Assembly (NCBI RefSeq): GCF_000524475.1
Contig: NZ_BAVQ01000003.1
Location: 310,001 to 374,000, forward strand
DNA: 64,000 bases
Direction of reading: 5' to 3'
Origin: Tomitella biformata AHU 1821
Lineage (GTDB): Bacteria > Actinomycetota > Actinomycetes > Mycobacteriales > Mycobacteriaceae
The notes below the pieces were generated by a model. That model did no database searches, was not told the origin of the DNA, and saw only the letters and a program-made list of their open reading frames with translations. The translations under genes and the position numbers were made by a program. Each line of letters opens with the position of its first letter. Position 1 is the stretch's first letter. Below are positions 11,873-47,926 of the stretch, one piece after another.

Positions 11873-14242
11873 ATGGACATCGACGGGAACCTCGACAGCG
11901 GGCACGGCGCCCAGGGACTGAGCGCTCAAGGACTGAGCGCTCAGGGACAAGACGGCGCGGGAGATCCGTGGCTGTCGGCACCGCCGTTCCTGGACGAGGC
12001 CCCATTTCCCGACGAGGCCCCATTTCCGGACGACGAGCTGAGCGATCCCTTCTTCGCCAACCCCGCCGTGGTGGCCGAGCCCGCGGACATCCCGGCGGCG
12101 GAGCCGTTCGCGAAGGCACCGGCACCGCGGCCGCGGCCGGTCCTCGACCCGGCGGTCCTGCGGGAGCAGGCCGAGGAGCTGCTCAAGCAGCTGGCCGGGC
12201 CCGACGCGACGCTGCGCGAGGACCAGTGGGTCGCGATCGAGGCCCTCGTGGCGCACCGCCGTCGGGCCCTGGTCGTCCAGCGGACGGGTTGGGGCAAGTC
12301 CGCTGTCTACTTCATCGCCGCGAAGCTGCTGCGCGCGCAGGGCTCCGGGCCGACGGTGATCGTCTCCCCCCTGCTGGCGCTGATGCGCAACCAGGTCACC
12401 GCCGCCGAGCGCGCGGGCGTGCGGGCGGCGACGATCAACTCCGGCAACGTCACCGAGTGGGACCAGATTCACGAGTCCATCGCCGCCGGCGAGGTCGACG
12501 TGCTGCTGGTCAGCCCCGAGCGGCTCAACAACCCGGACTTCCGCGACCAGGTCCTGCCGCAGCTCGCGGAGAACGCTGGGCTGGTCGTGGTCGATGAGGC
12601 GCACTGCGTCTCCGACTGGGGCCACGACTTCCGGCCGGACTATCGCCGGATCCGCACGCTCGTCGGGGAACTCGGCGCGGACACCCCGGTCCTGGCGACG
12701 ACCGCGACGGCGAACAACCGTGTCGTCACGGACATCGCCACCCAACTGGGGGTCGGCTCCGGCGGCTCAGGCGAGGAACAAGCGCTAGTGCTGCGCGGCG
12801 GGCTAGACCGCGAGTCTCTCCACCTGTCCGTGGTCAAGATCCCGGACTCGCGGAACCGCGCGGCCTGGCTGATTGAGAACCTGGCGTCGCTGCCTGGCGC
12901 CGGCATCATCTACACGCTCACCGTCTCCGCGGCGGAGGACCTGGCCGCCGTGCTGTCCGCGCAGGGGCATCAGGTGGCCGCCTACACCGGCCGCACCGAT
13001 CCCGCCGAGCGCGAGGCGCTCGAGGGCGATCTGCTCGCCAACCGGGTCAAGGCCCTCGTCGCGACCTCGGCCCTCGGCATGGGCTTCGACAAGCCCGACC
13101 TGGGGTTCGTCATCCACCTCGGCGCGCCGTCCTCCCCCATCTCCTATTACCAGCAGGTCGGCCGTGCCGGCCGCGCCACCGAGCGCGCGGAGGTGGTGCT
13201 GCTACCCGGCCCCGAGGACAAGGACATCTGGCGCTACTTCGCGTCGGTGGCCTTCCCGCCCGAGACGGTGGTGCGCGGGGTCATCGACGCGCTGACCGAG
13301 AGCCCCCAGTCCACTCCCGCACTCGAGTCGCGTGTCGATTTGGGCCGCAGCCGCCTGGAGATGGTGCTGAAGGTGCTCGATGTGGACGGCGCCGTCCGCC
13401 GGGTACGCGGCGGCTGGGTGGCGACGGGACAGCCGTGGGAGTACGACGGCGACCGCTACGACAACCTCGCCCAAGCGCGCCGCGCGGAGGAGCAGGCGAT
13501 GCTGGACTATCAGTCCACCACTGAGTGCCGGATGGCATTCCTCCGCCGACAACTGGACGACCCCGGTCTGACCGGCGACGACAATTGCGGGCGCTGCGAC
13601 AACTGCACCGGCGCCTACCGCTCGGCGGAGATCGACCAGGCCGCGGTCCAAGAGGCTCGGGCCCGGCTCGATCGGCCCGGTATCGACGTTCCGCCTCGCA
13701 AGCAATGGCCCACCGGCCTGGCACATCTGGGTATCCCGCTGAAGGGCAAGATCGCCGACGGCCCCGCGGAGGGCCGCGCGCTCGGACGCCTCACCGACCT
13801 GGGCTGGGGCCAACGTCTGCGAGCGCTCCTCTCCGGCCCAGACCAACCGGCCTCCGAGCAGTTGGTGGCGGGCTGCGTCGAGGTGCTCAAGACCTGGGGC
13901 TGGGCCACTCGCCCGGACTCGATCATGGCGGTGGAATCGTTGACCCATCCGGTGCTCGTTCGCACACTCACAGAACGGTTGTCCACGCTCGGCAGACTGA
14001 CAGATTTGGGGACTCTCCACCGCCGGCCCGAGCACCCTCCGGTGACCGCGATCAACTCCGCATTCCGAGTGGCGCAGCTGAGCGAGTCCTGGGAAACCCC
14101 CCAGAATTTGCCGTCCGGAGCCACAATCTTGCTGGTCACAGAACTGCTCGAGTCCGGCTGGACTATGACAATGGCCGCTCGCGAATTGCGGTCGGCCGGA
14201 GCCGCCGCGGTGCTTCCTCTTACTCTCGCCACCCAGAACTGA
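11873..14242 (+). CDS. recQ: RecQ-family ATP-dependent DNA helicase
   Basis: The 789-residue protein has a low-complexity acidic/Pro-rich N-terminus (1-90), then a DExH helicase core: Walker A variant RTGWGKS (137-143), SPLLALMRNQ (165-174), DEAHCVSDWGHDFRPDY (241-257, the RecQ-specific aromatic-rich loop) and QQVGRAGRA in the second RecA domain. A zinc-binding RecQ-Ct region follows, with TECRMAFL and CGRCDNC. Such 3'-5' helicases unwind forks and recombination intermediates. The C-terminal part is not an HRDC domain that I can recognise, and the long form is typical of actinobacterial RecQ-like proteins. It is not in the proA-proB interval of M. tuberculosis as I recall it. The ATG at 11873 has no strong ribosome-binding site. 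Confidence 0.9.
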   Translation: MDIDGNLDSGHGAQGLSAQGLSAQGQDGAGDPWLSAPPFLDEAPFPDEAPFPDDELSDPFFANPAVVAEPADIPAAEPFAKAPAPRPRPVLDPAVLREQAEELLKQLAGPDATLREDQWVAIEALVAHRRRALVVQRTGWGKSAVYFIAAKLLRAQGSGPTVIVSPLLALMRNQVTAAERAGVRAATINSGNVTEWDQIHESIAAGEVDVLLVSPERLNNPDFRDQVLPQLAENAGLVVVDEAHCVSDWGHDFRPDYRRIRTLVGELGADTPVLATTATANNRVVTDIATQLGVGSGGSGEEQALVLRGGLDRESLHLSVVKIPDSRNRAAWLIENLASLPGAGIIYTLTVSAAEDLAAVLSAQGHQVAAYTGRTDPAEREALEGDLLANRVKALVATSALGMGFDKPDLGFVIHLGAPSSPISYYQQVGRAGRATERAEVVLLPGPEDKDIWRYFASVAFPPETVVRGVIDALTESPQSTPALESRVDLGRSRLEMVLKVLDVDGAVRRVRGGWVATGQPWEYDGDRYDNLAQARRAEEQAMLDYQSTTECRMAFLRRQLDDPGLTGDDNCGRCDNCTGAYRSAEIDQAAVQEARARLDRPGIDVPPRKQWPTGLAHLGIPLKGKIADGPAEGRALGRLTDLGWGQRLRALLSGPDQPASEQLVAGCVEVLKTWGWATRPDSIMAVESLTHPVLVRTLTERLSTLGRLTDLGTLHRRPEHPPVTAINSAFRVAQLSESWETPQNLPSGATILLVTELLESGWTMTMAARELRSAGAAAVLPLTLATQN
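11915..11944 (+). repeat. 15-bp tandem repeat in recQ N-terminus
   Basis: Two copies of GGACTGAGCGCTCAA/G lie head to tail (11915-11929, 11930-11944) and encode a GLSAQ duplication. Each contains the palindrome TGAGCGCTCA. Because the unit is a multiple of three, copy-number change would stay in frame. Confidence 0.85.
11993..12028 (+). repeat. 18-bp tandem repeat in recQ N-terminus
   Basis: Two copies of GACGAGGCCCCATTTCCC/G (11993-12010, 12011-12028) differ at one base and encode DEAPFP twice. It is a second, independent in-frame expansion within about 50 bases of the first. Confidence 0.85.
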
Positions 14243-14321
14243 CCCAAATTGTGATGAGCATCACCAAGAGTGGCTGACCAGCGGTTAGGTCCACTTTTCA
14301 GGTGACGTTTCGATAACGGGG

Positions 14322-14349
14322 CTGACTTACCCCTAGCACTCTGGATACG
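14322..14349 (+). promoter_or_regulatory. Possible promoter of ectABC
   Basis: CTGACT (14322-14327) and GATACG (14344-14349) are spaced by 16 bases, which would put the transcript start within about 10 bases of the ectA ATG. TACGTT (14346-14351) is an alternative -10. The 118-base gap between recQ and ectA holds no other obvious control element. Weak visual evidence. Confidence 0.3.
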
Positions 14350-14360
14350 TTCGAAGGTGA

Positions 14361-14882
14361 ATGAAGCCCAACGAACCGGAAATACCCGCCCCATCCGCTC
14401 CAACAGCAGTGACGTTCCAGGTGCCGTCAATATCAGATGGCCGCCGCCTGTGGGAGATCGCGCGCGATTCGCGCGAGCTGGACCTGAATTCCAGTTACGC
14501 CTACGTCTTATGGTGCCGCGATTTCCAGAACACGTCGATTGTCGCGTTGGTGGATGGCAGGGTCTGCGGCTTCGTGACCGGTTACATCCGGCCCGAACGG
14601 CCCGACACGCTAGTAGTCTGGCAGGTCGCGGTGGACGCAGAGCAGCGCGGCAAGCGCATCGCTGGCCAACTGCTCGACGGCCTCCTCGACAGGCTCGCAC
14701 CAGACGTCTCCCGCATGGAGACCACGATCAGCCCCGGCAACGCGGCATCGATCGCATTGTTCACTGGCACCGCGGGCCGCCGCGGACTTGAGATCAAGTC
14801 CGAGCCCCTATTCGGGCCGGCCGATTTCCCGGACAGCCACGAGCCCGAGGATCTTTACATCCTCGCGGCCCCACCGCGCTGA
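14361..14882 (+). CDS. ectA: L-2,4-diaminobutyrate acetyltransferase (ectoine synthesis)
   Basis: This 173-residue GNAT acetyltransferase uses acetyl-CoA to make N-gamma-acetyl-diaminobutyrate, the second committed step to ectoine. It carries the EctA-typical [13 protein letters not shown] block (43-55), the CoA-binding region [17 protein letters not shown] and [13 protein letters not shown]. The N-terminal 20 residues are Pro-rich and variable. A GAAGG sequence lies just before the ATG with short spacing. It is the first gene of ectABC and is separated from ectB by 89 bases, a gap wide enough for a second promoter. Confidence 0.94.
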
Positions 14883-14971
14883 CCCCCCAGAAATTGTCCA
14901 TCGATTTCCTCGGTGGCCGATTAACCAATTCATCAAGTAGATATTCGCATCAGCGAAGAGGATACGACGAG

Positions 14972-16234
14972 ATGACCATGCAATCAGATATGTCCATTTT
15001 CCCGCGCCGGGAATCCGAAGTCCGCGGCTATATCCGCAACTGGCCGACTGTCTTCGACACGTCCAAGGGAAGCTGGATCCGTGACGAGAACGGCCGCGAC
15101 TACCTCGACTTTTTCGCCGGCGCCGGCTCCTTGAACTACGGGCACAACAACCCCATCTTCAAGGAAGCGTTGATCGACTACATTTCCCGCGACGGCATCA
15201 CCCACGCCCTCGACATGGCGACGATGGCCAAGCGTGATTTCCTCGGCGCGATCGAGGATCGCCTGCTGACGCCTCGCAACCTGGACTACAAGGTCCAGTT
15301 CCCGGGCCCGACCGGGACCAACGCCGTCGAGGCCGCGCTGAAGCTGGCCCGCAAGGTCACCGGCCGCGAGTCGATCATCAGCTTCACCAACGCGTTCCAC
15401 GGGATGACCCTCGGCTCCCTGTCGGTCACCGGCAACTCAATGAAGCGTGCGGGCGCAGGCATCCCGCTGGTCCACGCCACCCCCATGCCGTTCGACAACT
15501 ACTTCGACGGCGTCAGCGAGGACTTCCACTGGTTCTCCCGTGTGCTGGACGACTCCGGCTCCGGGTTGAACAAGCCGGCAGCCGTGATCGTCGAGACGGT
15601 CCAGGGTGAGGGCGGCATCAACGTCGCCCGCCCCGAATGGCTGCGGGCGCTGGCGGAACTGTGCGCCGACCGCGATATCCTGATGATCGTCGACGACGTG
15701 CAGATGGGCTGCGGCCGCACCGGCGGCTTCTTCTCCTTCGAAGAGGCCGGCATCACCCCCGACATCGTCACGCTCTCGAAGTCCATCGGCGGCTACGGGC
15801 TGCCCCTGGCGCTGACCCTGTTCAAGTCTGAGCTCGATGTGTGGACGCCCGGCGAGCACAACGGCACGTTCCGTGGCAACAACCCGGCTTTCATCACCGC
15901 CACGGCCGCGCTGAACACTTACTGGTCCGACGACGTGCTCGAGAAGGACACCCTCCGCAAGGGCGAGCTGGTACGGGAGCAACTGCAGAACGTGGCAGAC
16001 ACCCTCCCGGGCCTGAGCACCCGGGGCCGCGGACTGGCCCAGGGCCTGCGCTTCGAGCAGGCCGACTACGCCGCCAAGGTCTGCCGCGCTGCCTTCGAGG
16101 CCGGCCTGCTGGTGGAGACGTCCGGCCCGTCCGACGAGGTAGTCAAGCTGCTCCCCGCGCTGACCACCACGGACGAGGAACTCAGCCACGGCCTGTCCAT
16201 TCTGGCCGAGTCCGTGGCCAAGGTCATGGCCTAA
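14972..16234 (+). CDS. ectB: Diaminobutyrate-2-oxoglutarate transaminase
   Basis: The 420-residue class III PLP aminotransferase converts aspartate semialdehyde and glutamate to 2,4-diaminobutyrate, the entry step of ectoine synthesis. Key features are [16 protein letters not shown] (112-127), the PLP-ring Asp in [13 protein letters not shown] (239-251) and the Schiff-base lysine in [10 protein letters not shown] (Lys270). I chose the ATG at 14972, preceded by GAAGAGGA nine bases away; a longer frame from 14894 adds 26 unrelated residues. It is followed after 40 bases by ectC. Confidence 0.96.
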
Positions 16235-16274
16235 CACCACCGACTCCCAGCCCCTGACCGAGAGGACAGATCAC

Positions 16275-16673
16275 ATGATTGTGCGCACCACCGCCGAGAT
16301 CACCGGCACCGACCGCGAGGTCACCCCCGAGAACGGCAATTGGGTCAGCAAGCGGATCGTGCTGGGCGGAGACCGCGTCGGGTTCTCCTTCCACGAGACG
16401 ACCATCAAGGCCGGCACCGACAACGAGTTCCATTACGCCAACCACGTCGAGGCCGTGTGGCTCGTCGAGGGCGAGGGCGAGCTCATCGACCTCACCGAGG
16501 GCGGCAAGACCTACCCCCTGGCGCCCGGCACCATGTACCTGCTCAACGGGCACGAGCGCCATCGGGTCCTCGCCCGCACCCAGCTACGTATGCTGTGCGT
16601 GTTCAACCCGCCGGTCGTGGGCACCGAGGTGCATGACGCCGATGGCGTCTATCCCCTGGTAACCGTCGACTAG
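16275..16673 (+). CDS. ectC: Ectoine synthase
   Basis: This 132-residue cupin closes N-gamma-acetyl-diaminobutyrate to ectoine by water elimination. MIVRTTAEITGTDREV is the family opening, and FHYANHVEAVWLVEGEGEL carries the metal-site His/Glu pattern; HERHRVLARTQLRMLCVFNPP is the conserved C-terminal strand pair (written here in blocks around residues 92-112). A GAGAGGA sequence lies 7-13 bases before the ATG. No ectoine hydroxylase (ectD) follows: the next gene is a hydroxyacid dehydrogenase, so this locus alone would give ectoine but not hydroxyectoine. No ask_ect aspartokinase or ectR is present either. Confidence 0.95.
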   Translation: MIVRTTAEITGTDREVTPENGNWVSKRIVLGGDRVGFSFHETTIKAGTDNEFHYANHVEAVWLVEGEGELIDLTEGGKTYPLAPGTMYLLNGHERHRVLARTQLRMLCVFNPPVVGTEVHDADGVYPLVTVD

Positions 16674-16691
16674 CAGTCGGGCTTCCCAGAG

Positions 16692-16734
16692 ACGGAGTCG
16701 GTCATGGCACAGTTTGTGCCATGACCGACTCCGT
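16692..16734. repeat. Perfect 20-bp inverted repeat spanning the start codon of the hydroxyacid dehydrogenase
   Basis: Arms 16692-16711 and 16715-16734 are exact reverse complements of 20 bases around the 3-base loop GTT; a G-T wobble extends it by one pair. The right arm contains the ATG at 16721 and the first four and a half codons of the next gene. In RNA this hairpin would bury the start codon. It sits 18 bases after the ectC stop, so it can also serve as the ectABC terminator. No U-tract follows. Confidence 0.9.
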
Positions 16735-17662
16735 TCTCATTCCGGTGCCCGTATTCATCGGCCCCGAGCCGCAGGACTGGCTGCGCGAAGCCGTGATCGC
16801 TGGCGGCGGCGTCGAGGTGCCGTTGACAGCTGCGCAGGCTGTGGTCTGGTTCGGGTTCCCCCACAACTTCCCCGCGCTGCCGCGCACCGTCCGTTGGGTG
16901 CAGCTCCCCTTCGCCGGTATCGAGTCCTGGATGGACGCGGGACTGCTCGACGCGAGCCGGACCTGGACGAACGGCGCCGGGGTCTATGCGGACACCGTCG
17001 CCGAGCATGCACTGGCACTGCTGCTCATGGGAGTGCGCGGGCTGCACACCGCTGCCACCATCCAGTCCTGGGATCCCACCCGCGTCGGACCTGCCATCGG
17101 CACGCTGCGCGGGGCCATCATCGGCGTCCTCGGCGCAGGCGGCATCGGCCGGGCGCTGATCCTCATGCTCCGTGCGTTGGGCGCGGAGGCCATCGCGATC
17201 AACCGCTCCGGCCGGGCGGTCCGGATCGAGGGTCAGCCGGCCATCGAGACTATCCCGGTGGAGTTGCTGGACTCGGCGCTGCGCCGATGCGACCACCTAG
17301 TCCTCGCGGCCCCCGGCACCGCGGCGACGCGCAACCTGGTGGGCGCGAGGCAGCTCGGCCTGCTCCGCCCACACAGCTGGATAATCAATGTCGCCCGCGG
17401 GACCCTGATCGACACCGAAGCGCTCACACTGGCCCTCACCGAACAGCGCATCGGCGGCGCCGCCCTCGACGTCACCGAGCCCGAGCCCCTTCCCGACGGC
17501 CATCCCCTGTGGGCCCTGCCGAATGTGATCATCACCCCGCATGTCGCGAACCCGCCACACGGCATCGCCACACTGCTGGCCGCCAGGATCACCGAGAACG
17601 TCGTACGATTCGGTGCGGGCCGCGAATTGCTGGGCGTGGTTGATCCCCAGCTGGGGTATTAG
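16721..17662 (+). CDS. D-isomer-specific 2-hydroxyacid dehydrogenase, NAD-binding
   Basis: The 313-residue protein has the D-2-hydroxyacid dehydrogenase fold: NAD-binding GVLGAGGIG (135-143), the catalytic Arg in NVARGTLID (Arg226), the catalytic Glu within DVTEPEPL (250-257) and the catalytic His in TPHVAN (His274). Such enzymes interconvert 2-keto and D-2-hydroxy acids; the substrate cannot be read from sequence. The N-terminal substrate domain is short (start to about 95). The ATG at 16721 lies in a long hairpin and lacks a Shine-Dalgarno sequence; a GTG at 16745, outside the tight stem, is an alternative. It converges on proB with a 44-base gap. Actinobacterial relatives often sit beside proB-obg, so a link to ectoine is not implied. 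Confidence 0.88.
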   Translation: MTDSVLIPVPVFIGPEPQDWLREAVIAGGGVEVPLTAAQAVVWFGFPHNFPALPRTVRWVQLPFAGIESWMDAGLLDASRTWTNGAGVYADTVAEHALALLLMGVRGLHTAATIQSWDPTRVGPAIGTLRGAIIGVLGAGGIGRALILMLRALGAEAIAINRSGRAVRIEGQPAIETIPVELLDSALRRCDHLVLAAPGTAATRNLVGARQLGLLRPHSWIINVARGTLIDTEALTLALTEQRIGGAALDVTEPEPLPDGHPLWALPNVIITPHVANPPHGIATLLAARITENVVRFGAGRELLGVVDPQLGY

Positions 17663-17706
17663 CTAAGCCAGCCTTGCCGAGCCTGCCCGCGGGACGCGCA
17701 GCCTGA

Positions 17707-18807
17707 TCAGAGCTTGACGAGGTCGTCCGCGTGCACCACGGGGCGGATGCTCTCGCCAGGCAGCTCATGGGACTGGTGACCAATCATCGGCGGCAACTCA
17801 GCCGAGTCATAGGAGACCACGCCGCGGGCGATCACGGTGTGGTCGGGCGCGAGCAGCTCCACCACGTCGCCCTCGGAGAACCGTCCGTTGACCTCGGTGA
17901 TCCCCGCGGCGAGCAGGGAGCTGCGACGTTGGACGACGGCCCGCACGGCGCCGGCGTCCAGGTGCAGGGCACCCGAGGAATCGGCGGCGTGCCGCACCCA
18001 GAACCTGCGTGCGGTCATCCTGCTGTCGCGAGGGCCGAACACCGTGCCGACGCTGCAGGCGCCGGACAGTGCCGCCTCCGCATCCGCGGCGGCCGCGAGC
18101 AGCACCGGAATGCCCCCGTCGGCGGCCAGTTTCGCCGCAGACAGCTTCGACGCCATGCCACCGGTGCCCAGCGACCCGCCAGCGCCGGCGACGACGCCAT
18201 CCAGGTCCTCCGGGCCCAGCACCTCGCCGACGAAATTCGCGTGGCCCTTGCGGGGATCGGCGTCATAGAGCCCGTCGACGTCGGATAGCAGCACTAGCGC
18301 GTCCGCCCCGACCAGGTGCGCGACCAGAGCGGCGAGCCGATCGTTGTCGCCGAACTTGATCTCCGAGGTTGCGGTCGTGTCGTTCTCGTTGACCACCGCG
18401 ATCGCCTTGAGCGAGCGCAGCCGGTCGAGCGTGCGCTGCGCGTTGCGGTGGGTGTCGCGGCGCGCGAAGTCGCCGGCAGTCAGCAAGACCTGGGCGACGA
18501 CGCGGTTGTAGCGGGCGAAGGAGGTCGACCATTCGTTAACCAGCGCCAACTGCCCGACGGCCGCTGCCGCCTGCTTCGTCGCGAGGTCCCGCGGCCGCTT
18601 GGCCAACCCCAAGGGCGCGATGCCCGCGCTGACCGCGCCAGAGGACACGATCACCACATCGGAGCCCCGGCGCATGCGCCGCTCGATGGCATCGGCGAGC
18701 ATCCCCAGCCGGACGGCGTCGAGGCCGCCGTCCAGGCTGGTCAACGCGGACGAGCCGATTTTCACCACCACACTGCGCGCGGCGGCGATATCCTCCCGGA
18801 TCGTCAC
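17707..18807 (-). CDS. proB: Glutamate 5-kinase with PUA domain
   Basis: The 366-residue enzyme phosphorylates glutamate at the start of proline synthesis and is normally feedback-inhibited by proline. The amino-acid kinase domain shows [11 protein letters not shown] (12-22), SSGAVSAG (55-62), [18 protein letters not shown] (138-155) and [11 protein letters not shown]; a PUA domain follows from about residue 280 ([13 protein letters not shown]). The GTG start overlaps the obg stop by four bases (GTGA), so it is translationally coupled to the ribosome-assembly GTPase upstream. The obg-proB pair is standard in actinobacteria. Confidence 0.96.
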
Positions 18808-20264
18808 AGATCCCCCGTTTCCAGCCCCTCAAGGCCGCGACGGACCCGGCTGGAGTGCTTGCGCTCATCTGCAGTGGTGCGCTCCACCTGGTCCATACGA
18901 GCATCAGTGCCGCGGCCGGTCATGGTGATGTCGACACCGGCGGGCGTCTGCGGCTCCCACTCAAAACTCATGTCGCTGATGGTCACGCCGCAGCCGGGCT
19001 TCGCGCCCAGCTTGTGCAGTTCGTCCTCGACGCCGAGCCGGGCCAGCCTGTCCGCGAGGTAGCCGACGGCCTCATCGTTCGAGAACTGAGTCTGGCGGAC
19101 CCACCGCTCGGGACGGATGCCCCGCACGATGAACGAGCCGGGCTCGTCAGCGTCCTTCTCGACGCTGAACGCGCTCTCGTCGCGGGGGATCGGGCGGATG
19201 ACCGGGCGCGACGGCTCGGGCGGCGGATTGTCGATGCGGTACTGCTCGACCATCGCGGCGAGCGCGTACGTCAGCGGCTTGAGCCCGGCGCGGGAGACGG
19301 CCGAGATCGTGAACACCGGCCAGCCGCGGGACTCGAACTCCTCGGTGACGAACTCGGCGAGCTCTGCGGCCTCGGGCACGTCGGCCTTGTTGAGGATGAC
19401 CACGCGCGGACGGGTTGCGAGATCGCTCAGTCCCCAGTCGCCGGAGAGCAACGGCTTATAGGCCGCCAACTCCGCCTCGAGCGCGTCGACGTCGGAGATC
19501 GGGTCGCGGCCCGGCTCCAGCGTCGCGCAGTCCACGACGTGGGCCATGACCGCACACCGCTCCAGGTGGCGCAGGAAGTCCAGGCCAAGGCCCTTGCCCT
19601 CGGAGGCGCCGGGGATCAGACCGGGCACGTCGGCGATAGTGAAGGTTGTCTCACCGCTGGAGACCACGCCCAGGTTCGGGACGAGTGTGGTGAACGGGTA
19701 GTCGCCGATCTTCGGCTTGGCCGCGGAGAGCACCGAGACCAGCGAGGACTTGCCTGCCGACGGGAAGCCGACCAGGCCGACATCTGCCACCGACTTCAGC
19801 TCGAGGGTCAGGTCCTGCTCGACACCCTCTTCACCGAGGAGCGCGAAGCCGGGGGCCTTACGGGCGCGGGAGGCGAGCGCGGCGTTGCCGAGGCCGCCCC
19901 GACCACCCTGGGCGGCGACGAATTCGGTGCCGACGCCGACGAGGTCCGCGAGCACCTCGCCGTCCTTGCCGATAACCATCGTGCCGTCGGGCACGGGCAG
20001 GATTAGGTCCTCGCCGCGGGCGCCGTCCCTGTTGGAGCCTGCGCCGGGCCTGCCGTTGGTGCCTCGGGCGTGCGGGCGGAAGTGGAAGTCGAGCAGCGTG
20101 TGCACGCCGTCGTCGACTCGCAGGATCACGGAGCCGCCGCGTCCGCCGTTGCCTCCGTCGGGGCCACCGAGGGGCTTGAACTTCTCTCGGTGCACCGAGG
20201 AGCAACCGTGTCCGCCGCTGCCGGCGCTGATGTGTAGGACGACACGGTCCACAAAGCGTGACAT
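18804..20264 (-). CDS. obgE: GTPase Obg/CgtA
   Basis: The 486-residue protein has the three Obg domains: the Gly-rich N-terminal Obg fold (1-160, with [12 protein letters not shown] and repeated Gly triplets), the G domain with GFPSAGKSS (166-174), DVPGL and NKAD, and a C-terminal OCT domain (about 375-450) ending in a charged tail. Obg associates with the 50S subunit and links ribosome maturation to nucleotide pools and stress. It is downstream of rplU-rpmA, as in most bacteria, but a strong hairpin lies between rpmA and obg, so part of the ribosomal-protein message probably stops first. Confidence 0.97.
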
Positions 20265-47873: not shown

Positions 47874-47926
47874 AGACAAAAGCTAGCGCCCGCAACCGAT
47901 CCGGTTGCGGGCGCTGGCTTTTGTCT
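47874..47926. terminator. 25-bp hairpin between convergent pepN and DUF5130 genes
   Basis: Arms 47874-47898 and 47902-47926 pair over 25 bases with a single U-G wobble around a 3-base loop. The arms carry AAAA/TTTT near their bases, so either strand has a short U-run inside the stem. It begins two bases after the pepN stop and should terminate both directions. Confidence 0.85.

Follow-up and report, generated by a model that had tools for sequence, protein, structure and literature searches.

A terminator-like hairpin behind ectABC overlies the putatively leaderless start of a hydroxyacid dehydrogenase gene in Tomitella biformata

In the transposase genes of IS10 and IS50 and at the early/late hairpins of phage T4 (for example, that of gene e), RNA entering from outside folds back and hides the start of the gene, and RNA from the inside promoter lacks one arm of the hairpin and is translated. 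At the other end of genes, a mycobacterial study describes I-shaped terminators, hairpins that have no U-tract and follow a stop codon at a distance of no more than 50 bp, and calls Rho-dependent termination dominant (PMC12288462). Termination at such U-less hairpins is disputed: another report states that the RNA polymerase of M. bovis needs a U-tract in vitro (PMC5335608). In E. coli, a terminator located a few bases past a stop codon is reported to be repressed by the ribosome and to work better farther away (PMC4824070). Leaderless mRNAs are produced by about a quarter of the genes of M. tuberculosis, in which the centre of the motif TANNNT precedes the transcript start by 7–12 bp and 27% of the mapped starts have no such motif (PMC3898074); they make up approximately one third of the mRNAs of C. 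glutamicum (PMC3890552). Finally, according to a figure legend in a review, ectoine catabolic clusters include a hydroxyacid dehydrogenase, hdhD, whose role is undefined (PMC5924519).

Here we describe a hairpin from Tomitella biformata AHU 1821 that lies between ectABC and a co-directional D-2-hydroxyacid dehydrogenase-type gene (HAD), in a stretch of 64,000 nt, referred to below as the window (Table 1). The start of ectB was chosen by us, no NCBIfam model matched the HAD protein above its own cut-off, and the convergent gene downstream of HAD is one that we take to be proB-like. The gene order ectC-HAD is present in other genera of the family, and at two loci (L006 and L011) HAD is likewise followed by a convergent proB-like gene; the order is therefore probably old. 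The four congeners yielded no HAD match at E ≤ 1e-60, and in two of them a convergent proB-like gene directly follows ectC. The protein relatives that carry names come from 21 loci and are mostly distant; in the flanks covered for the five close ones, from a Nocardia MAG and four Tsukamurella, there was no ectC.

Table 1. Features at the ectC-HAD boundary (positions in the window)
Feature	Positions	Strand	Basis
ectA, diaminobutyrate acetyltransferase	14361..14882	+	TIGR02406 above cut-off
ectB, diaminobutyrate--2-oxoglutarate transaminase (start ATG 14972)	14972..16234	+	TIGR02407 above cut-off
ectC, ectoine synthase (stop TAG 16671-16673)	16275..16673	+	PF06339; NF009806 above cut-off
Left arm of hairpin	16692..16711	+	fold extends arm to 16689
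Candidate -10 boxes CACAGT (16708-16713) and CAGTTT (16710-16715)	16708..16715	+	analogy with relatives, weak
Loop GTT	16712..16714	+	arm search and folding
Right arm of hairpin, with ATG 16721 and codons 2 to 4	16715..16734	+	fold extends to 16738
HAD, D-2-hydroxyacid dehydrogenase-type gene (start ATG 16721, proposed leaderless)	16721..17662	+	PF02826; start by comparison
Convergent gene, presumably proB-like (neighbour only)	17707..18807	-	ORF, synteny

The hairpin begins 18 nt past the ectC stop codon, and its two arms are complementary at 20 of 20 positions around a 3-base loop. Folding of the region 16670-16760 resulted in 23 pairs, which join 16689-16711 with 16715-16738 and leave one bulge at 16734, at an energy of −53.9 kcal/mol compared with −24.6 ± 3.0 in 200 shuffles (z = −9.9), none of which folded as low as the native sequence. 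Arm complementarity and fold thus bear out the original prediction of a perfect 20-bp hairpin that buries the ATG at 16721, and the fold also supports its proposal that this start codon would be paired in RNA arriving from upstream. In a hairpin scan of 374 kb of the contig, the hairpin 16692-16734 reached a score of 20; three Markov copies of the same stretch contained one hairpin of score 13 and none of score 14 or more, which excludes chance. An origin from a repeat family was ruled out, as the palindrome is single-copy in the genome in a search that allowed up to 3 mismatches, and Rfam 15 gave no match at gathering score in 14200-18900. The stem is followed by TCTCATTC, which is not a U-tract, and no T-tailed terminator pattern was found in 16550-16900. 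The hairpin is thus not of the canonical U-tailed kind; as a strong stem-loop soon after a stop codon and without a U-tract, it shares these sequence features with the I-shaped class.

The same scan revealed 41 hairpins with a score of at least 13. By crude gene calls, 39 of them are intergenic and 2 lie within genes, T-runs follow only a few, and most thus mark gene ends without T-runs. Four of the 41 cover a gene start by these calls; in the other three cases, the gene model was judged by eye to extend too far upstream, and the hairpin 16692-16734 is considered the only supported start-covering one. The absence of a similar case from the window, as originally claimed, therefore holds for position, as far as the 374 kb examined here are concerned, but not for strength: eight further window hairpins score 13 or more, one of them higher than that behind ectC. 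This strongest hairpin of the window (47874-47926, 25-base arms, score 23.5) is located between convergent genes by the crude calls. A perfect 30-base palindrome, GATCGCGCAGTGC-CATG-GCACTGCGCGATC (G000:C110:123177-123206), has no clear gene start tied to it.

To which of the two genes the hairpin belongs was addressed by comparison with relatives, whose loci are mostly the best-scoring matches among those listed; since two or three genera contribute many of them, the locus counts are not independent. A hairpin with a score of at least 11 within 160 nt of the ectC stop was present, among the matches listed, at 22 of the 31 distinct ectC ends that were classed as having no HAD next to them, a count in which four assignments are doubtful: L123, where HAD follows directly, and L078, whose locus also contains a HAD match, were counted as hits, and L007 and L130, with HAD about 1 kb downstream, as misses. 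In 19 of the 22 cases the hairpin starts 14–28 nt past the stop, a spacing that may be explained by the repression that ribosomes exert on closer terminators. All four congeners have a hairpin with arms of 17–19 bases, unlike those in the window, starting 20–27 nt past the ectC stop. In sliding 70-nt windows around ectC ends and HAD starts, the structure z-score peaked behind ectC, with a best mean of −2.78 in the absence of HAD (31 loci) and −1.60 in its presence (49 loci), both among the matches listed. Around the HAD genes that are remote from ectC (34 loci listed), z stayed between −0.4 and +0.2 with no such structure, and a single window of one locus fell below −3; likewise, the second HAD copies of the genus g27, which are also remote from ectC, have no hairpin with a score of 10 or more. 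These peaks and hairpins behind ectC, together with the flat profile around separate HAD genes, associate the structure with the 3′ end of ectABC, and the comparison indicates that the hairpin most likely belongs to ectABC. Since hairpins recur behind ectC without HAD, the original suggestion of an ectABC end signal is plausible. At the ectC-HAD junctions themselves, a short-loop hairpin with a score of at least 11 was found in 2 of 36 among the matches listed (the window locus and L015); most relatives thus manage without one. As to conservation, which had been proposed as a check, the exact arms occur at no other junction examined, but the position of the HAD start is conserved, and hairpins with other sequences recur there.

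The ATG at 16721 is the first ATG, GTG or TTG in the HAD frame. The motif scan confirmed that it is not preceded by a Shine-Dalgarno sequence, and the same is true for the GTG at 16745, residue 9 of HAD. For 35 distinct relatives in which ectC is followed by HAD, the start codon was picked by a promoter-blind rule and occurrences of TANNNT were then counted. The motif was present 6–8 nt upstream of the start in 30 of the 35 relatives (among the matches listed), compared with 2 occurrences in total at 31 other offsets and a background of 1 in 4550 in coding sequence. With hand-picked starts, the box was found in 31 of 35; of the remaining four, L006, L012 and L124 have a Shine-Dalgarno sequence and L013 has neither. 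HAD is thus most likely leaderless in most relatives, judging from the boxes, and the missing Shine-Dalgarno sequence in the window is not odd. The promoter-marked starts of the relatives correspond to residues −3 to 5 of the window protein, mostly to residue 3, and the GTG at 16745 is not preceded by a box. The boxes thus favour the ATG at 16721, which is the most likely start in T. biformata; the alternative start at the GTG, raised in the original prediction, was not supported. The weakest link of the leaderless reading is the window itself, as no TANNNT was found in 16600-16800, and no sigma-70-type promoter match in 16550-16900. Two candidate boxes at the hairpin tip, CACAGT and CAGTTT, precede the ATG by 7 nt and 5 nt, respectively, and both deviate from TANNNT.

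At many junctions of the relatives, the TAG or TAA stop codon of ectC forms the first half of the HAD box (TAGCGT, TAACGT, TAAGTT; loci L061, L065, L067, L069-L071, L080, L113-L116, L120-L122, L125-L129, and others), so that stop codon and promoter share bases. In the second HAD copies of g27 that stand apart from ectC (L154, L159, L161, L162, L165-L167, L169-L172), TAGGGT likewise precedes the ATG by 6 or so bases, which suggests that enzymes of this family commonly have leaderless starts.

A dyad that spans the HAD start was also found outside Tomitella. In G010, the sole genome of its genus in the comparison, 13-bp arms enclose TACCGT in the loop, and the centre of the dyad is about 8.5 nt before the ATG; in the window, this distance is 8 nt. 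In g27, 15 of 17 ectC-HAD junctions (among the matches listed) form a long dyad whose arms enclose the ATG and, in all of them except L158, a TANNNT box; the bases immediately before the box are taken up by the left arm. Pairs were counted for 12 of the 17 junctions, which share one register (L004, L060 and L074 are shifted, L084 and L111 have no dyad). Across these 12 junctions, 17 pairs are formed in 97.9% of the cells, and in three pairs both partners have changed (4 cells); no such double change was left when the partner was slid by 1–3 columns. The covariation is real but small, since 10 of the 17 pairs are invariant. Start-spanning hairpins at the ectC-HAD boundary are thus found in three genera, Tomitella, g7 and g27, with unrelated arm sequences, and either the arrangement recurred or it was kept while the sequence turned over. 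The g27 alignment A1 (16 loci) contains an invariant TGACC approximately 17 bases before TAGAGT; if this motif is a −35 element, as we presume, the left arm would fill the promoter spacer.

At the codon level, the coding half of the window hairpin alone is unremarkable and gives no sign of selection. When this half was resampled synonymously against the existing left arm, 12.8% of the resamples still reached at least 20 pairs, and in a wider energy test by synonymous resampling the window locus has a z-score of −0.84. This wider test was applied to 48 of the 49 ectC-linked loci. Five, all from g27, fell below −3, including L164, one of two loci (with L152) whose automatically picked start proved incorrect on visual inspection; the remaining g27 loci were weaker, and none of the 34 controls fell below −2. 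When the first 120 nt were resampled, 4 of 48 loci were below −2 (L122, −4.4; L111, −4.1; L084, −3.5; L012, −2.6), as was 1 of 34 controls. Over their first 120 coding bases, L084, L111 and L122 are hence unusually strongly structured, more so than synonymous codon choice accounts for (z from −3.5 to −4.4); L084 and L111 are the g27 junctions that lack a start-spanning dyad. Hairpins inside HAD in g23 and g6, suggested by the sliding-window z-scores, were unsupported by synonymous-codon resampling: most of these loci lie between −1.5 and +1.3 for the first 120 nt, and six g23 loci were less structured than expected in the wider test (+2.3 to +2.9). No rule is claimed for structure inside HAD in these two groups.

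The reading that we favour, and consider somewhat more probable than all others combined, is that a hairpin at the 3′ end of ectABC has been laid over a leaderless HAD start and insulates the two units. What the sequences show is the hairpin and where it lies, the repeated occurrence of such hairpins behind ectC, and the promoter boxes conserved among the relatives. Against this reading stand the missing TANNNT in the window, the many ectC-HAD junctions without a short-loop hairpin, the unremarkable codon-level results for the window locus and the dispute over termination at U-less hairpins. The palindrome would act as a U-poor, I-shaped terminator-like element that ends the ectABC transcript at the usual distance behind ectC, overlaid on the start of HAD. 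HAD would be transcribed from its own promoter into a leaderless mRNA with the A of the ATG at 16721 as first base. One arm would then be located upstream of the transcription start, and the HAD mRNA, beginning inside the right arm, could not fold the hairpin; RNA from 16721 onward indeed has ordinary structure (z = 0.12). HAD transcripts that begin downstream of 16715, which the original prediction had named as a refutation, would thus be the normal case. Both arms would be present only in run-on RNA from ectABC, which would be stopped or paused at the hairpin, and in any RNA that passes it the HAD start codon would be paired and translation blocked. Termination, the transcription start in T. 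biformata and this translational block are the steps that we infer. The narrower idea that the transcription start site gates a start-codon hairpin, which would be built at the end of the operon around the leaderless promoter of HAD, with the ATG open on HAD's own mRNA and shut on read-through RNA, is put forward tentatively, as we think it possible but doubtful. Concerning the question of whether the hairpin couples or uncouples the two units, which the original prediction had posed, the comparison favours uncoupling.

Several other explanations were weighed against this insulation. HAD might instead be read from the ectABC mRNA, with the hairpin as a start-codon switch that responds to heat, salt, a protein or the ribosome and couples HAD to ectoine synthesis. 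The great stability of the stem, in which the start codon and codons 2 to 4 are completely paired, and the several genera with HAD directly behind ectC would fit such a switch; however, about 20 perfect GC-rich pairs are probably too stable to open easily, HAD starts are marked by a promoter box of their own in 30 of 35 relatives, and the four congeners keep the hairpin without HAD, and we regard the switch as unlikely. If the hairpin is only the ectABC terminator and leaves HAD translation unaffected, its overlap with the start is a matter of geometry, since a hairpin that extends from 18 to 60 nt past the stop must overlap a gene that starts 47 nt past it. The codon-level results for the window locus agree with this, but dyads that span this start are found again in G010 and, with compensatory changes, in g27, and this account seems possible, though rather unlikely.

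A role of the dyad in DNA, as the binding site of a regulator at the HAD promoter and without any function in RNA, is suggested by the position of the dyad centre in the window and in G010, where a promoter box is expected. Usual operators are shorter than a perfect 43-bp palindrome, though, the window locus, G010 and g27 were found to have no half-site in common, and hairpins of the same class follow ectC where HAD is missing, all of which makes an operator quite improbable. Highly improbable is a functionless, recent inverted copy of the HAD start generated by template switching: the arms are exact, the palindrome is single-copy and other HAD junctions lack it, but it is located exactly where the congeners and many relatives carry ectC hairpins. 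That translation truly starts at the GTG, which would leave the hairpin in the 5′-untranslated region, is hardly credible; neither start codon has a Shine-Dalgarno sequence, but the box-marked starts of the relatives cluster around the ATG.

In compact, GC-rich genomes with many leaderless genes, RNA from upstream must be stopped without harm to a promoter that is only tens of bases away. A left arm placed before the transcription start would, if the insulation proposed here is true, be a simple solution, and start codons inside terminator-like stems would then mark leaderless genes and aid the annotation of start codons. The components are known: end hairpins without U-tracts, leaderless genes and fold-back silencing hairpins. 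A terminator laid over a leaderless start is undescribed in the literature searched, as judged by titles and the openings of abstracts, and so, at the same depth, is the joint occurrence of these components where one operon ends, with the tip of the hairpin occupied by the promoter region. No paper in the literature covered mentions ectoine, ectC and 2-hydroxyacid dehydrogenase together.

The hairpin resembles the I-shaped mycobacterial hairpins, such as TtsaD of M. tuberculosis, which are strong, GC-rich stems without a T-run, located at most 50 bp from a stop codon and between co-directional units (PMC5335608, PMC12288462). It differs from them in that the next gene starts with its right arm and in that termination is so far a prediction. 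The relatives of HAD, with TANNNT a few bases before an ATG or GTG and no Shine-Dalgarno sequence, match the leaderless mRNAs of actinobacteria (PMC3898074, PMC3890552), whereas the boxes of the window itself deviate from TANNNT and are placed at the hairpin tip. The proposed logic resembles the fold-back silencing of IS10 and T4, as here, too, outside RNA would hide the start and inside RNA would lack one arm. However, what the hairpins of IS10, IS50 and T4 conceal is the ribosome-binding site of a mobile or phage gene, whereas that behind ectC would cover a leaderless start between chromosomal genes and would serve, in addition, as the hairpin at the end of an operon.
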